From: Bacillota bacterium
Lineage (GTDB): Bacteria; Bacillota; Clostridia; Acetivibrionales; JAMNXU01
NCBI GenBank assembly: GCA_023623175.1
Contig: JAMNXU010000020.1
Span: forward strand, 1 to 64,000
Direction: 5' to 3'
Length of the DNA stretch: 64,000 nucleotides
Within the stretch, counting starts at the first letter, position 1. Every line of letters starts with the position of its first letter. The position numbers and the translations under genes were made by a program. This document shows, one piece after another, positions 11,439 to 60,165 of this stretch. The notes below the pieces were generated by a model. The model ran no database searches. It saw only the letters and a list, made by a program, of their open reading frames with translations, and was not told the origin of the DNA.

Positions 11439-11563
11439 GGGACAGAGGGAAAAACCGTCCTGTGTCCCTGGATTGGGACAAGAGAACCGTCCCCGTGTCC
11501 GGATTGGGACAAGAGAACCGTCCCCGTGTCCGGATTGGGACAAGAGAACCGTCCCCGTGTCCC
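11439..11563. repeat. Cluster of four GGGACA...TGTCCC palindromes
   Basis: Four copies of an imperfect palindrome of about 27 bases: 11439-11468 (divergent), 11475-11500, 11506-11531 and 11537-11563. The last three are spaced exactly 31 bases and nearly identical. The arms are GGGACA and TGTCCC around an asymmetric core with AGAACCGTCCCC. Same family as the copies near 26085, 33612, 36921 and 59971. Resembles REP elements; see the findings. Confidence 0.85.
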
Positions 11564-26084: not shown

Positions 26085-26142
26085 GGGACAGGAGAACCGT
26101 TCCCGTGTCCCGAGTGGGACAGGAGAACCGTCCCCGTGTCCC
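26085..26142. repeat. Two GGGACA...TGTCCC palindromes
   Basis: Copies at 26085-26111 and 26116-26142, 31 bases apart as in the 11.5 kb cluster, placed 22 bases after a stop codon. Confidence 0.85.
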
Positions 26143-33576: not shown

Positions 33577-33930
33577 TATAACTGGATACGGGTGGGACAG
33601 GTGAGACACGTGAGACACGGGGACGGTTCTCTTGTCCCACCGATGGGACACGGGGACGGTTCTCTTGTCCCACCGATGGGACACGGGGACGGTTCTCTTG
33701 TCCCGGGGACACGAAGATAAGATTGGAGACGGGGAATAATGGTTCTTCTATCCCGGGATATGGGGACACAGGAACCGTCCCCGTGTCCCTGCGCAGGTAC
33801 ACAGGAACCGTCCCTTTGTCCCGTCCCGCCGTCCCCTTGTCCCGGGTTCCCGTGTACCAGGTTCCTGTTTTTTAATTCCGTATAAATAATGCATATATTG
33901 GCAAGAATGTCTGGAAAGGAGGATTTTTTT
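33577..33930. other. Intergenic region filled with palindromes
   Basis: Almost wholly occupied by the palindrome cluster 33589-33870; no gene. The last 60 bases carry the AAAGGAGGA site of the next reading frame. Confidence 0.6.
33589..33870. repeat. Largest cluster of GGGACA palindromes
   Basis: Clear copies lie at 33612-33638 (left arm changed to GAGACA), 33645-33671, 33678-33704 (33-base spacing, inverted orientation), 33763-33789 and 33796-33822 (opposite orientation). Further decayed pieces with GTACC arms run to 33870. The switch from one orientation to the other occurs between 33704 and 33763. Confidence 0.85.
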
Positions 33931-34775: not shown

Positions 34776-36668
34776 ATGGAAGAAGTAAATCTGGAGAAAA
34801 AGACTCTGGAAGACTTACGTTTTATTGCAAAAATGCTTGGAATCAAGAATATTGCAAAATATAGGAAAAAAGAACTCATTGATGTAATCAAAGAGACTGC
34901 CATGGCCGATGCGAAAAAGCAGGAGGCTTTGGCAGCCCGGTCCGATGCTGAGCAAAAAACGGATGATGCCGGAGTGAAGGAAGAAGGAGATAAAGTCTCC
35001 GAAGAACGCGAAGTAGCCAAAGAAGCTGAAGAAGAAGTTAAAGAAGCGGACAGGGAAGCTGTAAAAGAGGAAAGCAGGGAAGAAACAAAGGAAGTTAAAG
35101 AAGAAGCTAAAGAAAAAGCCAGGGAAGAAGAAAAATCCGCTGCCGCTGCGGAAGAGCCCGTTGTTAAAAAGTCGAGAAGGGGAAGACCCAGGAAAAATCC
35201 CATTTTAACCGAAGCGCCTGTTCAGACTGTTGCTCCTGATCTGGCAGAACGCAAGGAAGAAGCGGAAGAAGAAAAGAAGGAAGAAGAAAAGAAAGAAGAA
35301 GTTAAGAAAGAAGAAGATAAGAAGGAAGAGTACGTCGAGTCGCGGGTAACAGAAGCAGTCCAGGCGACGGTTGAAGAACAGGTAAAAGAGTCTGAAGCCA
35401 AACCCGAATCAAGGGAAAAGTCTACAGCAGAACCTGTGGAAAAACAGGTTTCTGAATCCAGGGAATCTCAAAGACAGCACGAATTTAAAAAGGATACGGA
35501 AGGTCAGCCCAATTTCTACTACAAAAAAATTGAGAGCGATGATCCGGTTGAAGGAGTACTTGAGGTTTTGCCCGACGGTTACGGCTTTTTGAGAAGCCAG
35601 AATTACCTGTCGGGGCCCAAGGATGTTTATGTTTCCCCGTCCCAGATTCGTCGCCTTGGACTTAAAACCGGTGACTGGATCAGGGGAAAAGGAAGGATAC
35701 CGAACGACGGTGAAAAATTCCAGGCGCTCCTTTATGTACAATCCGTTAACGGCGATCCTCCAGAAGTGGCAGCAAAAAGAGTCCCGTTTGAAAATCTTAC
35801 GCCCATATTCCCGAATGTCAGGATAACACTTGAAACCGAACCGCGCGAATATGCCACGCGCCTGATAGATCTTATCGCTCCCATAGGCAAGGGACAGCGC
35901 GGAATGATAGTTTCACCGCCCAAAGCCGGTAAAACCGTGCTTCTTAAGAAAATCGCCAATGCAATAACGACCAATTATCCGGACATGGAACTCATTGTAT
36001 TACTGATTGACGAACGTCCGGAAGAAGTCACCGACATGCAGAGATCAATCAAGGGCGAGGTATTGTATTCAACCTTCGACGAGGTGCCAGAACACCATAT
36101 CAAGGTTGCGGAAATGGTCCTTGAAAGAGCCCAGAGGCTCGTCGAGCAAAAGAGGGACGTTGTAATTTTACTCGACAGCATAACAAGGCTTGCAAGGGCT
36201 TACAACCTGACAATTCCCCCTACCGGCAGGACGTTGTCGGGCGGTCTTGATCCGGGCGCGCTGCATAAGCCCAAGAGATTTTTCGGCGCGGCAAGGAACA
36301 TAGAAAACGGAGGCAGCCTCACCATTATTGCCACGGCGCTTATAGATACCGGAAGCCGCATGGATGACGTTATCTATGAAGAATTCAAGGGAACGGGCAA
36401 CATGGAGCTGCATCTTGACAGGAAACTGTCTGAAAAGAGAATTTTCCCTGCAATTGACATAAACAGATCGGGTACGCGGCGGGAAGAACTGCTGCTGTCA
36501 CAGAAAGAGCTTGAAAGCATCTGGGCCATAAGGAAAGCCATGAGCAACATGGGAACGGCCGAGGTTACGGAAATGCTGATAAACAGGCTCACGCAGACCA
36601 AGAGTAACGAGGAATTCGTAAACAGTATCAACACTGCATTTCTCGACAGTAATAAGTGGGCATTATAG
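34776..36668 (+). CDS. rho: Transcription termination factor Rho
   Basis: A 630-residue RNA-dependent hexameric helicase that ends transcripts. An N-terminal Rho_N (SAP-like) helical domain covers 1-45. About 210 residues, very rich in Glu, Lys and Ala, are inserted before the cold-shock RNA-binding domain, which starts near 258 ([15 protein letters not shown]). The motor has Walker A PPKAGKT near 381-387, [11 protein letters not shown] and [14 protein letters not shown]. The insertion contains an AT-hook-like [12 protein letters not shown] stretch. Such insertions occur in Clostridia and Actinobacteria and can bind RNA or phase separate; that is family knowledge. The terminator that follows is intrinsic. 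Confidence 0.95.
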
Positions 36669-36920: not shown

Positions 36921-36947
36921 GGGACAAGAGAACCGTCCCCGTGTCCC
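36921..36947. repeat. Single GGGACA palindrome
   Basis: One full copy, 27 bases, placed three bases from the stop codon of the minus-strand LuxR gene. It could act as that gene's 3' hairpin. Confidence 0.85.
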
Positions 36948-36950
36948 ATG

Positions 36951-39900
36951 TTATATCAAATTTAGTTCTTTCGCTTTCTGGACCGCCTGGACCCTCCTGT
37001 TGACATTCAGTTTGCCGTATATGTTCCTGACGTGGGTTTTTACGGTGTTGACGGACATGTAAAGGTTCTGGCTTATTTCCATGTTGGAAAGGCCCTGGGC
37101 AATGAGCCTTATAACCTCTATTTCCCTCTCGGTCAGCGGTTCTATCAAATTATGTTCTGAATGCCGGGTACCGGCGGGAACCTCGGAAATATAGCTTTGC
37201 AGCTTCCTGGCGAAAGCTATCTGCGTCGCCAGGAGCTTTAAGGCTTCAAGGCGCTGGGACGTGAAAACTCCGGGCAAGAAGTTGTTTTCGAGGTATATGA
37301 CGCCGGAGGGAATGCCCTGCAACAACAGCGGCACGCAGGCAATGGATTTTGGATTGGATTCGGATATATACGGGTCATTGGAAAATATTCCAAAATCCTC
37401 CCCGAGGTTTATCGCGACGGTGTCGGAAGTCCTGGCAACATAATTCACTACGGACATTGATACTTCGTTATATTCGCTGAGCGGCACCGTTTTCGCCTTC
37501 GACCTCGTGTCGTCGGAAGTCTTAAGCGCCTCAATGAACAATTCGCCGTCCTTTTCGAAAATAAGGCAGCCGCTGTCCGCGCCCATGCTTTTGACTATGA
37601 TGTCCAGGAAGCCTTCCAGCAGAGCGTTTATGTCAGTTTCGTTCGTGATGCTTTCGACCGCTTTTTTAACAAGGTATGAATCAAATTCGGTGATGGCCGT
37701 TCCGGCAGAAGGCGCCGAATAATTCAGCATGCTGCTGATCGCTTTGCCGGTTTGGATTGCCGTGTTTTCCGGCGCAAATTCGCCGAGAACGTCAGAATAC
37801 CTGTTTTTCAGATCATTGACCTTGTTCGCCGCGCCCCATTTTCCGTAAGCATTGCATGCATCCTCCAAATAGGTTTTTGCAACCTTTTCCATACCGCGGC
37901 CGAGGTAAAATTTGCCCGCAAGCTCACAGGCAAGTGCTTCATTTTGAATATAACCATAGGTTCTTGCTGAACTGATGGCCTTTTCATAAAGCAACATGGC
38001 CTTTTCCGTCTCGTTCAGAAGGCTTGCCGCCTGGGCGCACACGAGCAGGTACTTGTGCTCGAAATTGTCTTTGCAGGACGCGGCCCATTTTTCCAGCCTG
38101 CGAATGTTATTTCTCAAGATTCTTCTGTAATATTTTTTCTCCCTTGCCGGCAATTCCGGGAAAACAGCCGTTATAACCAGCGATTCGTAGAAGAAAAATT
38201 CTGAATAAACCAAAAAGCCGATGATAGAACCTAGCAGCGGCCGTATTTTCTGCGCGAGCTCCAGTGCGGATCTGTAGTCGCCGGCCATGTAGCGCAGGTG
38301 CATTTTGGCCCAGTAATATGTTGCCAGCGATGAATTGTCTTCCTTCACCAGGTTCAAAATTTCATCCCTGTCAAGTTCTGCCGCACCGTCGGCAAGCGAG
38401 CCTGACCTGCGCCCCGTCATCGCGGAAACGACTTTATCGTAAATAGTAATACTGACCAGGAGAAAGAAGTGCTTTATTTTTTTAAGCAACTCGTTTTTTT
38501 CGCGGATGAATTCTTCGACATGTTCCAGCCTGGTTCCTGTGATATAAAGATTTTCGGTAAGAACGCAGTCGGCATAGCCGGCAATTACGAGGTTGCCAGA
38601 CTCATTTCCTGCCGCTGAGGCTTTTCTGAGATAATCGAGCGCGAGCGCCGCATGGTTCGTCCAGTGATGAATCAGTGCTCCTACTACAAAATATATGATG
38701 CACTTGTAGGAACTGAGGTCGTATTTCTCCGCGAGCCGGACGCAGAGCTGGGCAAACCTGTCCCCGGTCCTGTAGTCTCCGAAAACGATGCCGCTGGTAA
38801 TGCCGTATCCCAGGTAGCCCACTGGAGCAACTTCGCTGTTTCCGGAGCGGAGAACGTAGTTGCCCGTTTTCAGAATGATAAAACTGTACAAGTCGGGGAA
38901 AACGGCCATGCTGACATAGCACAGGCGCGCCAGCAGCTCCGAGATTTTCTTCTGCTTTATTTCTTTCATCTCAGGCAGGAGGTAAAGGTCTTCGACGGTC
39001 CTGTTGCGCATGAACCATTTATATAAAACCAGTTCCTTAGCATAATGAAGCGCAGCGGGACGCAGCGGTATCTTCATACCCAGGTCCTGGAGCGCGCGGA
39101 GTCCGGTGTATGTTGCCTCTGCAAACTTTCCCACGCCCGCATACAGCGTCATTTTTAATCCGTAAACATCGGCGCGGTCGATATCTGACCGCGATTTTTC
39201 AAGGATAAAATCAAACAGCTTCTCGGCTGATTCTTCATCTTCGCACAGGTACAGCGCCTGGGCATATTCCAGGTACAGCTCAAAGCTGAGGCGGTAGTCG
39301 GATTCCCATGCATTGTCCTGGATCAGCTCCCTGGCGCATCTGAAATATTCTAGCGCTGAAGCGTATGCGCCGGAAGCCCTCGCCTTGCGCCCCGCCAGCA
39401 GGTTGAACCTTGCCAGCGTCAGCCTTTTCCCGGAATCCTGTATTAACTCCAGGCCGCGGTTGAAGTGGTCCATCATGGCGAGGATATTTTCTTCGAAATT
39501 GCTTCCGCGCATATTCATATTATTTAAGAGGTAGGAACCTATCATTACATGATTCTGCTTTTTCTCTTCTTCCGTGACAAGGGAATAGGCTGCCTGCTGG
39601 ACCTTGTCATGAAGAAACTCGTACAGCAAATCGTTTTGGGACTGTTTATTATGGACCTGCTGACCCGGGGCTGAAGCTGTTTCTTCCGTTTCAGCGGCGA
39701 TAATCAGGCCTTCATGAACGGCCGGTATAAGGGTCCTGGCCGTTTCTTCCACTGATTTGCCGCAAAAGGCGGCAAGGGAATTGAGGTCAAACCTGTTGCC
39801 ACAGCAGGAGGCCAGCTTGACGAGTTCCCGGGTTTCCCCCGGAAGTCTCTGGATCTTGCTCAATATAAGATCCATGATGTCTTCGTTTTGCCGGAAAGCC

Positions 39901-41681
39901 TGGATGGATTCGAGATCCCAGTGCCAGCGCTCATGCCTGCTGTCATAGTACAACAGCCCTTCATCATGTATTATCTGAAGGATCTGTTTTAGGGAGAAAG
40001 GATTGCCTGCCGATTTACGGTACAGGCATCGTGTAAGAGAGTCAATATCCGGGAGCAGCGTTCCCAGCGAATCTGTCACAAAATTCTCCGCTTCCTGCAT
40101 CCGGAGCGGTGAAAGCTGTATATGTAACCTGCTGACCAGGTTATCTTCCGGGCTCCTGGCCTTTATAACATTAAGCAGCGGGTGCTCTTCGCCTAGCTCA
40201 TTTTCGCGGTATGCGCCCACTATTAGCAAATGGCTCAGGTCCGTGTCGCGCATGAGAAACTCCAGAAGCTTTATCGACGCGCGGTCGGCCCACTGGAGGT
40301 CATCGAGAAAAAGCACAAGCGGATGGTTCTTCCATAAAAATACCTTTATAAAATCCTTAAAAACATTCAAGAAACGGGTTTCCGCTTCCTGGGGCGGCAG
40401 TGGTTCCACGGGCTGCTGCATGCCCACTATCCATTCCAGCTCCGGTATAATTTCGGTAACAACCGCGCAATTGCGGCCGATGGAGTGCAAAATCCTGTTT
40501 TTCCACCATGTAAGCGTCTTGGTGCTTTCGGTCATCAGCTGCCTTGCGAGATTGCTGAAAGCATCGATATAAGGGGCATAGGGGATGTTTTTTCTGAGCT
40601 GGTCTACTTTTCCCGCAATAAAATAGCCTTTTCCGGCTGTGACGGCTTGGAGGCTTTCATTAACCAGCATAGTTTTTCCGATGCCGGGTTCGCCGCTTAC
40701 AAACACGATTTCAAAGGCTCCCCTGCAAACGCGGCTGAAAGCAGCCCTGAGCATCTCCGTTTCCTCATTTCTGCCGTAAAAGGCGTTGCTCAGGCGAAGT
40801 TGCGCGGATTTATCCTTTTTTGCAATGTCAATATGCCTAATCTGCCCCGTTTTGACAAGCTGGCTCTTGCATTCCCTGAGATCGCATAAAAGCCCGTATG
40901 CGCTTTGGTACCTTTCATCCGGGTTTTTATTGAGCAGCTTCGTTATGATGTCGGAAATGGCGGGCGGGATTGCGTCGTTAACCTGATGCGGAGGTGTCGG
41001 CTTCTGCGTCAAATGGGCATACGCCCACTCGGTGGGATTATTGGCCTTAAACGGCAGCGTGCCCGTAAGCATTTCATAAAATATTACGCCGAGGGAATAA
41101 AGGTCGCTGCGCCTGTCCATGAAGATTTCAACCCGGCCTGTCTGTTCCGGCGGCATGTACTCGGGAGAACCTGCCGGACAGACCAGGGCGGAAGGCGCAA
41201 CCTGGTTTGAATGGTTGAAAAACTGCACCGCATTGCAGAAATCGGTAATATATATCTTGCCGGTGTCGGGCTTTATCAGTATGTTGTCGGGATTCAGGCT
41301 CCTGTGGATGACCCTGCTCGCGTGTATTTTTTCGATAATTTCTGCAATGCCGACGGCAATATCGACAAAATCGACGATGCCGACAGGCTGTTTTTTCAGA
41401 TGTTCGCGCAAAGTTACAGCGCCGATGTCTTCGAAAATCAGCGCAAAAACGTGTTCCGACTGATCTGCCTTGACGGGTTTTAAAATTCCTTCTATATCGA
41501 GGTTCCGCGTTATTGCGTATTCGCGCATAAAATCCGAAACTATGGCGGAATCAAATGTTTCTTCCTTTAGAACCTTGATTATAACAGGCGCCTGATCATT
41601 TATGTCGCAACCTTTATATAATTCGAAGCAATTATTTTCATTAATAAGCTCATAAATTCTGTAACCTGCTAAATCAATCAT
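36951..41681 (-). CDS. Giant regulator: pseudokinase, AAA ATPase, GAF and LuxR HTH
   Basis: A 1576-residue cytoplasmic signalling protein. Residues 1-270 are a Ser/Thr kinase fold, but the glycine loop is missing, the HRD motif is HRS (126-128) and DFG is DFC (147-149); Lys36, Asn133 and Asp147 remain. This points to a pseudokinase. From about 300 there is an AAA/STAND ATPase with Walker A GEPGIGKT at 330-337 and LVLFLDDLQWAD; then about 600 residues of TPR-like helices; a GAF domain near 1340-1490; and a LuxR HTH in the last 65 residues (LTEREIEVIRLIAQG, MSVNTVKTHVRNIY). It should bind DNA and respond to a ligand or partner. No target genes can be named. It is a single gene. Confidence 0.9.
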   Translation of the reverse strand: MIDLAGYRIYELINENNCFELYKGCDINDQAPVIIKVLKEETFDSAIVSDFMREYAITRNLDIEGILKPVKADQSEHVFALIFEDIGAVTLREHLKKQPVGIVDFVDIAVGIAEIIEKIHASRVIHRSLNPDNILIKPDTGKIYITDFCNAVQFFNHSNQVAPSALVCPAGSPEYMPPEQTGRVEIFMDRRSDLYSLGVIFYEMLTGTLPFKANNPTEWAYAHLTQKPTPPHQVNDAIPPAISDIITKLLNKNPDERYQSAYGLLCDLRECKSQLVKTGQIRHIDIAKKDKSAQLRLSNAFYGRNEETEMLRAAFSRVCRGAFEIVFVSGEPGIGKTMLVNESLQAVTAGKGYFIAGKVDQLRKNIPYAPYIDAFSNLARQLMTESTKTLTWWKNRILHSIGRNCAVVTEIIPELEWIVGMQQPVEPLPPQEAETRFLNVFKDFIKVFLWKNHPLVLFLDDLQWADRASIKLLEFLMRDTDLSHLLIVGAYRENELGEEHPLLNVIKARSPEDNLVSRLHIQLSPLRMQEAENFVTDSLGTLLPDIDSLTRCLYRKSAGNPFSLKQILQIIHDEGLLYYDSRHERWHWDLESIQAFRQNEDIMDLILSKIQRLPGETRELVKLASCCGNRFDLNSLAAFCGKSVEETARTLIPAVHEGLIIAAETEETASAPGQQVHNKQSQNDLLYEFLHDKVQQAAYSLVTEEEKKQNHVMIGSYLLNNMNMRGSNFEENILAMMDHFNRGLELIQDSGKRLTLARFNLLAGRKARASGAYASALEYFRCARELIQDNAWESDYRLSFELYLEYAQALYLCEDEESAEKLFDFILEKSRSDIDRADVYGLKMTLYAGVGKFAEATYTGLRALQDLGMKIPLRPAALHYAKELVLYKWFMRNRTVEDLYLLPEMKEIKQKKISELLARLCYVSMAVFPDLYSFIILKTGNYVLRSGNSEVAPVGYLGYGITSGIVFGDYRTGDRFAQLCVRLAEKYDLSSYKCIIYFVVGALIHHWTNHAALALDYLRKASAAGNESGNLVIAGYADCVLTENLYITGTRLEHVEEFIREKNELLKKIKHFFLLVSITIYDKVVSAMTGRRSGSLADGAAELDRDEILNLVKEDNSSLATYYWAKMHLRYMAGDYRSALELAQKIRPLLGSIIGFLVYSEFFFYESLVITAVFPELPAREKKYYRRILRNNIRRLEKWAASCKDNFEHKYLLVCAQAASLLNETEKAMLLYEKAISSARTYGYIQNEALACELAGKFYLGRGMEKVAKTYLEDACNAYGKWGAANKVNDLKNRYSDVLGEFAPENTAIQTGKAISSMLNYSAPSAGTAITEFDSYLVKKAVESITNETDINALLEGFLDIIVKSMGADSGCLIFEKDGELFIEALKTSDDTRSKAKTVPLSEYNEVSMSVVNYVARTSDTVAINLGEDFGIFSNDPYISESNPKSIACVPLLLQGIPSGVIYLENNFLPGVFTSQRLEALKLLATQIAFARKLQSYISEVPAGTRHSEHNLIEPLTEREIEVIRLIAQGLSNMEISQNLYMSVNTVKTHVRNIYGKLNVNRRVQAVQKAKELNLI

Positions 41682-41846
41682 TGACTGGATTACCTCACCG
41701 GAAAGTTACAAAACCGCTGAAAACATCATGTTCCAAAAAAACACGTGTTGATAAAAAAATATATAATTTACTTAAATTATACTAAACGCGAACGCATTAG
41801 TAAATAATGCCCGGTTTGGAAGAATAGTGTCGAATCCAAAAAACTC

Positions 41847-41973: not shown

Positions 41974-42177
41974 ATGAAGAAAGGAATACATCCCGAATAC
42001 GGTGAAGCGGTAATCAGGTGTGCCTGTGGCGAAACCATCACCACCGGTTCCACAAAAAAGGAAATGCGCGTTGAAATATGCTCCAAATGCCATCCTTTCT
42101 TTACCGGTAAGCAGAAATTTGTTGATACCGGCGGACGCGTTGACAAGTTCAAGAAGAGATTCGGCCTGGAACAATAG
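41974..42177 (+). CDS. rpmE: 50S ribosomal protein L31 (zinc-binding form)
   Basis: A 67-residue L31 of the zinc (C+) type, with Cys16 and Cys18 in RCACG and Cys36-x-x-Cys39 in ICSKCHPF. It opens MKKGIHPEY and keeps the [18 protein letters not shown] stretch. The ATG at 41974 follows GAAGGTG; an in-frame GTG three codons earlier lies within that site. In Firmicutes rpmE often follows rho, as here, though a large regulator gene on the other strand is set between them. Confidence 0.95.
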
Positions 42178-42180
42178 TTT

Positions 42181-42212: not shown

Positions 42213-42981
42213 TATGGTTATGACACTGGTATAAGGCAACTCTGGTATAAGGCAATAGCTTTGAAACAACGCAATGTCTAAGAAATAGCGCAAAGATATT
42301 GGGAGCATTACCGTTTTGATTGGCCATGACTTCGGGATTCATCCCGGAGATGTTATCATGGAAGGCATAGTCCTGCAGATTCATCCCGGAAGGCGTCGTC
42401 CGGGAAACATCATCCGGGACTTTATGGGGCTGTCAGCGCGCCCGGCTGGCGCTTTCCTTGTTTAAAGCCGAGCGATAGGCTATAATAATTCCAGAAGGTG
42501 AAGTTTTTCAAAACACAACAAATATAAATATATCAAATATAAATGATAAACAGATGAAATTGAATAAGGACACGAATTAATATGCAGATGAATTTTTAAA
42601 CTGTTAAACATATAAAACAAACTAAATACCAAACAGATTGAACAGATCAGTTAAACCGGATTATTTAAATAGATAAATTAAACAGATAATCAGATTAAAC
42701 AGTTTAAAAACAAATAAACATATATTAAACAGATTAAACAAATAAAAATATAAAACAGTTAAAACAAATAAACAAATAGACAGATAAAACCATTAATCAG
42801 ATAAAACAATTAAACAGATTTAAACAAACAGGTTTAAACAATAAAGCAGATTAAACAAATTAATCAGATTAGACAGATTAAACAGGCTGATTAAGTTGGT
42901 AAATATCTTCAACAGGTTATTTTAAAGTATATTCAGGGACAGCAGATTGAATGTCTGCCAGTCCGGTTGCAGGAGTGATAT
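42213..42981. other. Long repeat-rich gap between rpmE and the DUF1385 gene
   Basis: No gene in about 770 bases. From 42222 there is a 16-base tandem duplication (CTGGTATAAGGCAA), from 42330 a blurred repeat of ATTCATCCCGGA with GTCCGGGA, and from 42500 to 42900 an A-rich AAACAGATT repeat. Confidence 0.6.
42500..42900. repeat. A-rich AAACAGAT repeat tract
   Basis: About thirty imperfect copies of ATTAAACAGA, ATAAACAAAT and similar 8-14 base units. The plus strand is nearly free of G and rich in A. No start codon or ribosome site stands out. Confidence 0.75.
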
Positions 42982-43992
42982 ATGATTATTTCAAACAAAC
43001 CGGTTAAAAAAACAAGTATAGGTGGCCAGGCGCTGATCGAGGGTCTTCTGATGATCGGGCCGAAAAATGCGGCAATAGCGGTCAGGAAACCCGACGGCGA
43101 AATAGTAGTTGAAAAGAGACCGCTTCCTGCAAAAGGCAGGATTTCTAAAATCCCTGTTTTAAGGGGTATTGTTTCCTTCGGGCGCCAGATGGTGATGGGC
43201 GTGAAGGCCCTTATGTTTTCTGCCGATTTCTATGACATTGAAGAGGAAGAAAAGCCCGAAAAGGAAAAGAAGCCGAACCGTATCGGCGAAAAGATCCGCA
43301 ACCGTTTCAGCGGGATCGGCGAAAAAATCGACGCCTTTTTTGAACGGCTGATGGAAGGCCGGATGAAGGATGTAATGATATATGTCTCGGTCACCCTGTC
43401 AATCCTTTTCAGTATTGGTCTGTTTATACTGCTGCCCAATTTTCTCGCCGGGCTTATGCCGTTTAACAGGGACACCTGGGCGGGAAGCGTTTTCTACAAC
43501 CTGTTTGAAGGCGCAGTGAGGGTAACGCTGTTTATAACCTACCTTGTGCTGGCGTCAAGGCTCAAGGAAATGAAAAGGGTCTGGCAGTATCACGGGGCCG
43601 AGCACAAGACAATTCACTGCTACGAGGCCGGAGAAGAGCTCACCGTTGAAAACGTGATGAAATATTCCACCAAGCACCCGAGGTGCGGAACATCGTTCCT
43701 TTTTATAGTGATGATTGTAAGCATACTGGTATTTTCGCTTTTGCCCGTTTTTCCCTCGATGCTGGTCAACATGCTGTTGAGGTTCCTGCTCGTGCCGCTG
43801 GTTGCGGGCATTTCCTATGAAATAATAAAGCTTGCGGGCAGAAGCGACAGAAAAATAGTCAGGGTAATAAGCGCCCCGGGACTGGCGTTCCAGAGGTTTA
43901 CCACGCGGGAGCCCGATGAATCTCAGGTGGAGGTGGCAATCACCGCGTTTAACAATGTGCTTGTACCGGAACCGGACGCCGACAGGTGGTAG
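42982..43992 (+). CDS. DUF1385 membrane protein (YqhQ-like)
   Basis: A 336-residue membrane protein of the DUF1385 family. It starts with the family signature GGQALIEGLLMIGPKN near residues 12-27 and has YHGAEHKTIHCYEAGE near 210-225 and TKHPRCGTSFLF near 236, whose His and Cys residues may bind metal. Membrane segments cluster near 135-190 and 240-290. Function is unknown; the gene pairs with rpmE and prmC in many Firmicutes, as here. CAGGAGTGATAT gives the ribosome site. The stop codon lies in the first unit of a 30-base tandem repeat. Confidence 0.9.
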   Translation: MIISNKPVKKTSIGGQALIEGLLMIGPKNAAIAVRKPDGEIVVEKRPLPAKGRISKIPVLRGIVSFGRQMVMGVKALMFSADFYDIEEEEKPEKEKKPNRIGEKIRNRFSGIGEKIDAFFERLMEGRMKDVMIYVSVTLSILFSIGLFILLPNFLAGLMPFNRDTWAGSVFYNLFEGAVRVTLFITYLVLASRLKEMKRVWQYHGAEHKTIHCYEAGEELTVENVMKYSTKHPRCGTSFLFIVMIVSILVFSLLPVFPSMLVNMLLRFLLVPLVAGISYEIIKLAGRSDRKIVRVISAPGLAFQRFTTREPDESQVEVAITAFNNVLVPEPDADRW

Positions 43993-59546: not shown

Positions 59547-60165
59547 CCGTGACAGGCGAACTTTCTTTTTTAATCGGGCAGAATCCATTCGCGCGGAAAG
59601 TAGATAATTTCCCGTGTTTCCCTGAAAGGAACAGTAAAATTTCCCTATAATTCAGCATAAGGCAGGAGAACATCCGGTAATCCCGCTTTGCCCTGATGTC
59701 CCTTGTTGCTTTTTTGTCTTGCGTTTAACCGGGATAATCGTTTCGATGCCGTCGACGCATCATGATGGCTTTCCTTTTAATTAGCGCTGCCTGGTATTGT
59801 ACGGAGGAACCGTCTCCGTGTACCACCCCGTGTACCGAATTGACCGGCTGGAACATGGGAACTGTCCCTTTGTCCCCCTGTTCCTGGCTTTGTTCCGTGT
59901 TGAAACAGGGAAACCATTTTAATCCCGGTAACAGAGGCAGGAGGATTCCCTCTTTATTTTTGGCATTGCTGGGACAAGGGAACCGTCCCCCTGTCCCGGG
60001 ATTGGGACAGGAGAACCGTCCCCTTGTCCCGCTTGTCCCCGCCGGAAAATTGTTTCCGTGTCTCCCGTGTCCCTAAAAATATTCGGGGTGGATTCAGACA
60101 AATTAAAAAGGTTGGCTTATAATATTTATGTAGGGACTCGTGAGGAGCGGTATGAGGAGGGGCAT
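59547..60165. other. Intergenic region with palindromes
   Basis: No gene in about 620 bases. The first part has no clear structure; 59798-60075 is a loose cluster of GGGACA palindromes. A likely ribosome site and start of the next gene are at 60154-60166. Confidence 0.55.
59798..60075. repeat. GGGACA palindrome cluster with GTAC-armed variants
   Basis: Two clear copies at 59971-59997 and 60004-60030 (33-base spacing), with weaker pieces at 59798-59826 (GTAC arms) and 59857-59882, and single TGTCCC arms to 60075. Confidence 0.75.

Follow-up and report, generated by a model that had tools for sequence, protein, structure and literature searches.

Between genes taken for rho and rpmE, on the reverse strand of a 64,000-nucleotide stretch of Bacillota DNA (the whole stretch is referred to as the window), lies a gene whose product joins a degenerate kinase-like domain to a STAND ATPase, a GAF domain and a LuxR-type DNA-binding head. 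This arrangement raises the question of what the kinase fold does in a transcription regulator: whether it still acts as an enzyme, whether it serves the regulator in another way, or whether it is a remnant.

A degenerate kinase-like domain on an intact STAND regulator

The gene is an unbroken open reading frame of 1576 residues with an ATG start and a good ribosome site (GGTGAGGT) ten bases upstream of it (Table 1). Matches to Pkinase (residues 21-259, E 4e-33), AAA_16, GAF and the LuxR helix-turn-helix were all well over the Pfam cut-offs, and a match to TPR_CHK1 (residues 1122-1246) was borderline at 27.2 bits against a cut-off of 27. No other full-length match was found in the same genome, the best of the remaining kinase matches being a separate 652-residue frame (34%). 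Identity as MalT itself was rejected, the NCBIfam MalT model (NF003420) scoring 58.9 bits against a cut-off of 537 and matching the helix-turn-helix part only.

Table 1 Features of the gene and its immediate flanks, in window coordinates.
Feature	Position	Strand	Basis
Whole gene: kinase-like domain, STAND ATPase, helical repeats, GAF, LuxR HTH	36951..41681	-	ORF and Pfam
Promoter-like site TTTACT-17-TATAAT, 95 bases 5' of the ATG	41776..41804	-	Consensus match only
Kinase-like domain, residues 1-275 (N-lobe about 1-90, C-lobe about 91-275)	40857..41681	-	Pfam, AlphaFold2, PknB match
K36, VAIK lysine, kept (VIIK)	41574..41576	-	Sequence, alignment
HRS 126-128 replacing HRD; codon 128 is AGC	41298..41306	-	Sequence, alignment
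DFC 147-149 replacing DFG (D147 kept, Gly to Cys)	41235..41243	-	Sequence, alignment
AAA_16/STAND nucleotide-binding domain, residues 301-488	40218..40781	-	Pfam, E 1e-39
Walker A GEPGIGKT, residues 330-337, intact	40671..40694	-	Sequence
Walker B LVLFLDDLQWAD, residues 455-466, intact	40284..40319	-	Sequence
Arm and helical-repeat (TPR-like) region, residues about 640-1340	37662..39764	-	Limits estimated
GAF domain, residues 1350-1491	37209..37634	-	Pfam, E 3e-11
LuxR-type helix-turn-helix (GerE/LuxR), residues 1515-1570	36972..37139	-	Pfam, E 2e-18
Hairpin GGGACGGTTCTCTTGTCCC directly 3' of the stop codon, copy of a dispersed repeat	36921..36939	-	Sequence

The glycine-loop position reads NENNCFELYKG, without GxGxxG, and this, like HRS for HRD and DFC for DFG, can be read directly in the protein, as the preliminary description had done. 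HRS is followed by LNPDN, in which N133 is kept and the catalytic-loop lysine is changed to Asn; E54 is kept and a PPEQTGR motif is present. By the usual sequence definition of a pseudokinase (loss of the VAIK Lys, the HRD Asp or the DFG Asp) the domain is one, its HRD Asp being Ser128, so that the earlier classification as a pseudokinase on a STAND ATPase with GAF domain and LuxR output holds. AlphaFold2 (37 sequences) predicted a complete two-lobed kinase (pLDDT 90, pTM 0.90), for which the best matches among solved structures were PknB (1mru_A, Z 31.7, 2.2 Å over 261 residues); the kinase homology domain of STK40 was also near the model (Z 30.0). A 640-residue model of the kinase and STAND domains was set aside as a source for their interface, its arrangement being unsettled (pTM 0.61).

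Relatives with a LuxR output

Twelve genome searches covered 1003 genome slots, some genomes being counted repeatedly; those at class and phylum level were samples (391 and 398 genomes out of larger groups), with at most two candidates scored per genome and E-value limits of 1e-180 to 1e-200. The sampled genomes held 34 LuxR-output loci including the window's own, with identities to the window's protein ranging between about 60% and 30%. At 23 of these loci a single frame holds the STAND part together with both kinase lobes; the kinase is in a separate frame at two (L152, L110), missing at two (L051, L053) and represented by its C-lobe only at five (L109, L154-L157), and the last two are fragments (G019, G501). 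Four of the 23 have the LuxR head in a further frame after a break (L052, L066, L167, L169), and the same set includes L020, whose contig ends within the LuxR head, and L108, whose C-lobe is partly masked. The residue counts given below leave out the two fragments and the two separate-frame kinases, one of which reads HGD and GFE and the other HRD and GFN with Glu at the VAIK lysine. Pfam was run on five representatives and gave a GGDEF output for L054, a histidine kinase for L112, L159 and L163, and LuxR for L109; the remaining outputs were assigned by motif or alignment only. Relatives of about 31% in the window's order mostly have a GGDEF-like output and keep their kinase motifs (confirmed by Pfam for L054).

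The relatives share class and phylum with the window's genome, and two are labelled Clostridiaceae and Hungateiclostridiaceae. They are scattered unevenly, occurring in 2 of the 33 genomes of one order, in 4 of the 22 of another (two with LuxR output) and in 4 of the 30 of a third. Members of different orders are intermixed in the tree, the window's gene standing beside G022 of the same order and G178 of another, which suggests horizontal spread of these regulators. Stops or frame breaks were seen inside several homologues (L066 and L045 near query residue 1500; L052, L110, L167, L169); a break near position 8728 of L152 separates the kinase from most of the STAND part, and L053 has an in-frame TGA just 5' of the ATPase part. 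These interruptions may be draft-genome errors or gene splitting.

Loss of catalytic residues is specific to the kinase

Catalytic residues were compared in 48 sequences with both lobes, 23 with LuxR output and 25 with other outputs. Among the LuxR-output sequences K36, E54 and D193 are each kept in 22, and H126, N133 and R257 each in 21, with Y7, V33, H120, K248, Y258 and D267 invariant (23/23); the catalytic Asp is kept in 8, the DFG-Asp in 14 and the DFG-Gly in 6. Lys, Glu, HRD-Asp, Asn and DFG-Asp occur together in six of the 23, none of which has the DFG-Gly, so the full set of six residues occurs in none. The same five residues are together in 20 of the 25 other-output sequences, and 16 of these 20 have the DFG-Gly too. 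The expectation of an active kinase in most relatives of this plan therefore does not fit the LuxR-output proteins: judged by their residues, the majority of homologues with the same architecture are likewise degenerate. Given the six sequences with the five main catalytic residues, and the HRD/DFS motifs of the window's nearest neighbors (see below), some members of the clade may nevertheless still have an active kinase. Walker A and Walker B are intact in all 31 LuxR-output sequences in which they were scored (the 23 together with L051, L053, L109, L152 and L154-L157), so that the loss is specific to the kinase.

GxGxxG is absent from all 48 sequences, including the 16 other-output sequences that keep every other catalytic residue, and loss of the loop was for this reason dropped as a sign of inactivity. 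In distant kinase-ATPase proteins (23-27% identity) the loop begins GEG in eight of nine sequences; the loop was therefore lost before the catalytic residues varied, and separately from the Asp.

HRS and DFC are probably recent

A tree of the core (residues 296-1340, thus without kinase or output) groups the window's gene with L047 and L101 at a support of 100/100. Both of these nearest relatives read HRD and DFS, which rules out HRS/DFC as a conserved signature, the point that an alignment of homologues had been proposed to settle, and indicates that the changes to Ser128 and Cys149 probably arose recently in the window's line, the catalytic Asp being probably a recent loss. Near neighbors with intact HRD and DFG had been named as evidence of such a loss and against a switch; the HRD is indeed intact in the neighbors, and the DFG is not. 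Across the 23 LuxR-output sequences the HRD-Asp position is occupied by Asp in 8 and most commonly by Asn (10), with at least six switches between Asp and other residues, and because Asn is the commonest residue, losses and regains of Asp are indistinguishable. The window's codon, AGC, differs from an Asn codon at one base and from an Asp codon at two.

The kinase evolves faster in the LuxR clade

Evolutionary rate was expressed as the tip length of the kinase divided by that of the core, on a topology fixed from the core, for 23 LuxR-output sequences and 23 others (two tips shorter than 0.04 having been dropped). The median ratio was 1.43 in the former and 0.95 in the latter (P 0.003), while the AAA domain, taken as a control, gave 0.80 and 0.78 (P 0.52). 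The window's gene, at 1.78, ranks fifth of 48; of the four sequences above it L112 and L060 retain both Asp residues, and a high ratio alone is therefore no mark of a dead kinase. Loss of Asp was considered as the cause of the faster evolution and rejected, since its effect was weak across the 46 sequences (P 0.036) and nil within the LuxR clade, where sequences with both Asp (7) and without (16) had similar ratios (P 0.87). The faster evolution of the kinase is thus a property of the clade.

Kinase-less and C-lobe-only relatives

The two kinase-less proteins, L051 and L053, start at query residues 289 and 294, and a search of all frames over the 1200 bases upstream of each gave no kinase match at E 0.05; in three control loci the same search found the N-lobe at E 2e-26 or better. 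The regulator can thus exist without the kinase. L051 has a short start region of its own behind a gene that we take to resemble a sigma factor, and L053 has a weak kinase match (E 0.026) downstream of the gene. Taking the kinase-less and C-lobe-only LuxR proteins together, no sense N-lobe match was found upstream in six of seven; the exception, L155, gave a weak match of 23 N-lobe residues (E 0.002), its contig offering 175 bases upstream. The matches for L157, and for L117 of the group with histidine-kinase motifs, were antisense and chance-like.

A C-lobe without an N-lobe occurs in 15 sequences, five with LuxR output and ten with histidine-kinase motifs (L116, L117, L118, L159-L162 and L164-L166, L159 being confirmed by Pfam); the available sections of the literature compared here gave no description of a C-lobe-only kinase on relatives with histidine-kinase motifs. 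In these 15 sequences H126, N133 and D147 are mostly gone and HRD and DFG mostly erased, while E179, R191, G198, Y202, R257, Y258 and D267 are kept in every one and D193 in 14. Over the 63 sequences with a C-lobe, presence of the N-lobe switched at least five times, on a quick tree with some weak branches and with long-branch warnings for L172/L175 and L171/L119, the latter pair adjoining two C-lobe-only sequences. The 15 C-lobe-only proteins, the strict conservation of the APE-Glu/Arg pair and F-helix residues, and the repeated changes of the N-lobe lead us to a tentative proposal, which we regard as possible but not as probable: that the family's kinase is shrinking to a C-lobe that acts as a non-enzymatic docking surface for the adjoining ATPase, the window's protein, with its full fold and dead catalytic loop, representing an earlier stage.

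Genomic surroundings

The gene lies between genes that we take to be rho (34776-36668, forward strand) and rpmE (about 41974-42178, forward strand), on the strand opposite to both. Its promoter-like site belongs to a class with 9 occurrences observed against 6.4 expected in shuffled sequence, and is accordingly weak. The GGGACGGTTCTCTTGTCCC hairpin after the gene could, from its sequence, end transcription; terminator-like sites overall showed no excess (8 against 7.7 expected). Eleven copies of the GGGACGGTTCTCTTGTCCC repeat were present in the window at up to two mismatches, and none in 100 shuffles. They lie at 11475-11555, 26085-26134, 33614-33704, 36921-36939 and 59971-60022, in short tandem groups 31-33 bases apart, the hairpin behind the gene being the lone single copy. 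An A-rich degenerate array of TTAAACAGA-type units occupies 42560-42890, 5' of a gene at 42982 that is presumably DUF1385-like.

Neighborhoods were compared for 31 of the 34 LuxR-output loci, and no single gene context that would reveal the target of the window's gene was found. Bactofilin-like genes lie downstream in five of the 31 (L103, L107 and L108 by Pfam; L109 and L154 by similarity cluster), and a bactofilin together with an actin-like gene in two more (L050 by Pfam, L102 by cluster), L050 having the actin-like gene and two bactofilins. A polysaccharide deacetylase is downstream in five (L103, L109, L154 and L148 by Pfam; L107 by cluster). Among the genes concerned are those at L103:3555-5356, L107:11769-12491, L108:3612-4241, L109:7821-8906, L154:1054-1929, L148:8025-9326 and L050:9901-12092; such deacetylase and bactofilin neighbors are shared by several families and by branches far apart in the tree. 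Their recurrence is a hint that, in the genomes concerned, the targets may be envelope or cytoskeleton genes. The hint does not extend to the window's genome, whose one bactofilin is on another contig, with no polysaccharide deacetylase recognizable by eye beside it. PknK of Mycobacterium tuberculosis phosphorylates Rho, according to the accessible part of PMC9045387; a link of this kind to the neighboring rho was set aside as coincidence, no cluster found in at least two of the 31 loci including rho.

A probable non-catalytic input or docking module

The reading that we favor, with a probability of about 0.6, is that the gene encodes a MalT-like STAND regulator of the kinase-ATPase-GAF kind (apparently a CP1-type fusion, see below), in which the kinase, next to the ATPase, would serve for input or docking without catalysis. 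It is based on the replacement of the catalytic Asp by Ser, the retained fold with its K36-E54 pair, the intact Walker motifs and LuxR head, and a clade in which the kinase is degraded, halved or lost. On this evidence the window's kinase very probably no longer transfers phosphate, and the worn, halved or missing domain of the related regulators suggests a handle or sensor rather than an enzyme. From the position of the kinase fold at the N-terminus of a STAND protein we infer that this fold controls opening and multimerization as a built-in element, without acting as an enzyme. A signal on the kinase fold, the repeats or the GAF domain would loosen autoinhibition, upon which the STAND part would exchange ADP for ATP and multimerize, and the LuxR heads of the multimer would bind DNA; nucleotide might gate the kinase fold through K36, E54, N133 and D147, with GAF and repeats providing additional input. 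The allosteric switch put forward in the preliminary description would be plausible.

A kinase domain that is merely vestigial, in a clade that needs none and whose stages of decay vary from genome to genome with little function left, would account for its faster evolution relative to the core than in the cousins, for its absence from two homologues and reduction to the C-lobe in five, and for the wide variation of the catalytic residues. We consider this rather unlikely, since the frame of the window's kinase is open and its fold is predicted, with confidence, to be complete, six positions are invariant across the LuxR-output sequences with K36, E54 and R257 kept in 21 to 22 of 23, and seven C-lobe residues are strictly conserved even where the N-lobe is gone; the tip of the window's own kinase, 1.8 times as long as that of the core, would show constraint only indirectly.

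Improbable, in our view, is a kinase that is active in the ordinary way or through an atypical ATP chemistry that dispenses with the HRD Asp, or through another such as AMPylation, with the regulator itself or partner proteins as substrate. In its favor are the retained K36, E54, N133 and D147, the HRD of the closest relatives, and the bacterial pseudokinases with other chemistries, SelO and SidJ, noted in the available text of PMC12599244. Against it, the catalytic Asp, the catalytic-loop Lys and the DFG Gly are changed to Ser, Asn and Cys, and 15 of the 23 sequences lack the Asp while others lack the N-lobe or the entire domain, so that a shared chemistry seems not to have been under selection. 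That HRS and DFC are assembly or sequencing errors is highly improbable: the genome is in 39 contigs and frame breaks occur at several homologous loci of other draft genomes, but the frame of 1576 codons is unbroken, three separate motif changes are unlike point errors, and completeness and contamination of the genome are given as 99.99% and 0.84%.

The clade amounts to a natural deletion series, HRD/DFS, HRS/DFC, C-lobe only and no kinase, each on an intact STAND part and LuxR head. The DNA output of the LuxR head is measurable, so the role of a dead kinase on a STAND switch can be tested by swapping or trimming domains with a promoter readout.

Comparison with known systems

MalT is not known to have a kinase or a GAF domain, and the Anabaena HstK type is a kinase-AAA-GAF hybrid histidine kinase. 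PknK of M. tuberculosis resembles the window's protein in placing an N-terminal kinase ahead of a large ATPase/regulatory part, but is not known to have a LuxR head. With MalT and the large LuxR-type STAND regulators, as far as the sections available describe them (PMC6468293, PMC10427625), the window's protein shares intact Walker motifs, helical repeats and a LuxR head; it differs from MalT in the kinase placed ahead of the nucleotide-binding domain and the GAF domain placed ahead of the LuxR head. STAND proteins are closed in the ADP state and switch to an open ATP state, in which they multimerize (PMC6468293, in the part available). The N-terminal order kinase, AAA_16, GAF is found in Candida albicans Chk1, and S. 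pombe Mak2 and Mak3 are likewise kinase-AAA-GAF hybrid histidine kinases (available portions of PMC9069115 and PMC5383687); these proteins and HstK have a histidine-kinase output, whereas that of the window's protein is DNA-binding. Joint deletion of the kinase and AAA parts of Chk1 gave a strong phenotype in which, within the accessible text of PMC9069115, the two were not separated. PknK differs in being an active kinase, K55M being phosphorylation-defective (PMC9045387, as far as accessible).

A further close parallel is CP1, a family of bacterial Ser/Thr kinases of which, by the portions available of O'Boyle et al. 2025 (PMC12599244), about 40% are degraded in one or more motifs, and whose pseudokinases are all joined to a COG3899 ATPase and in many cases also to GAF (FhlA) or PAS. 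The words LuxR, STAND, AAA and TPR are absent from the text of that paper in the form available, figures apart, and no paper on the combination of LuxR with such a kinase or pseudokinase fusion was found among the open-access papers searched. The motifs of the Leptospira member Q8F1M0, given there as VLIK, Hkslcpgn and DFS, resemble the window's VIIK, HRSLNPDN and DFC, and the window's protein has a GAF domain, frequent in CP1; its AAA_16 directly after the kinase and its borderline TPR_CHK1 match would fit a linked COG3899 ATPase. A degenerate kinase joined to this kind of ATPase and GAF is therefore already described as a kind in the accessible account of CP1. That account reports CP1 chiefly from cyanobacteria and proteobacteria, whereas the relatives of the window's protein belong to its own class and phylum and end in LuxR.
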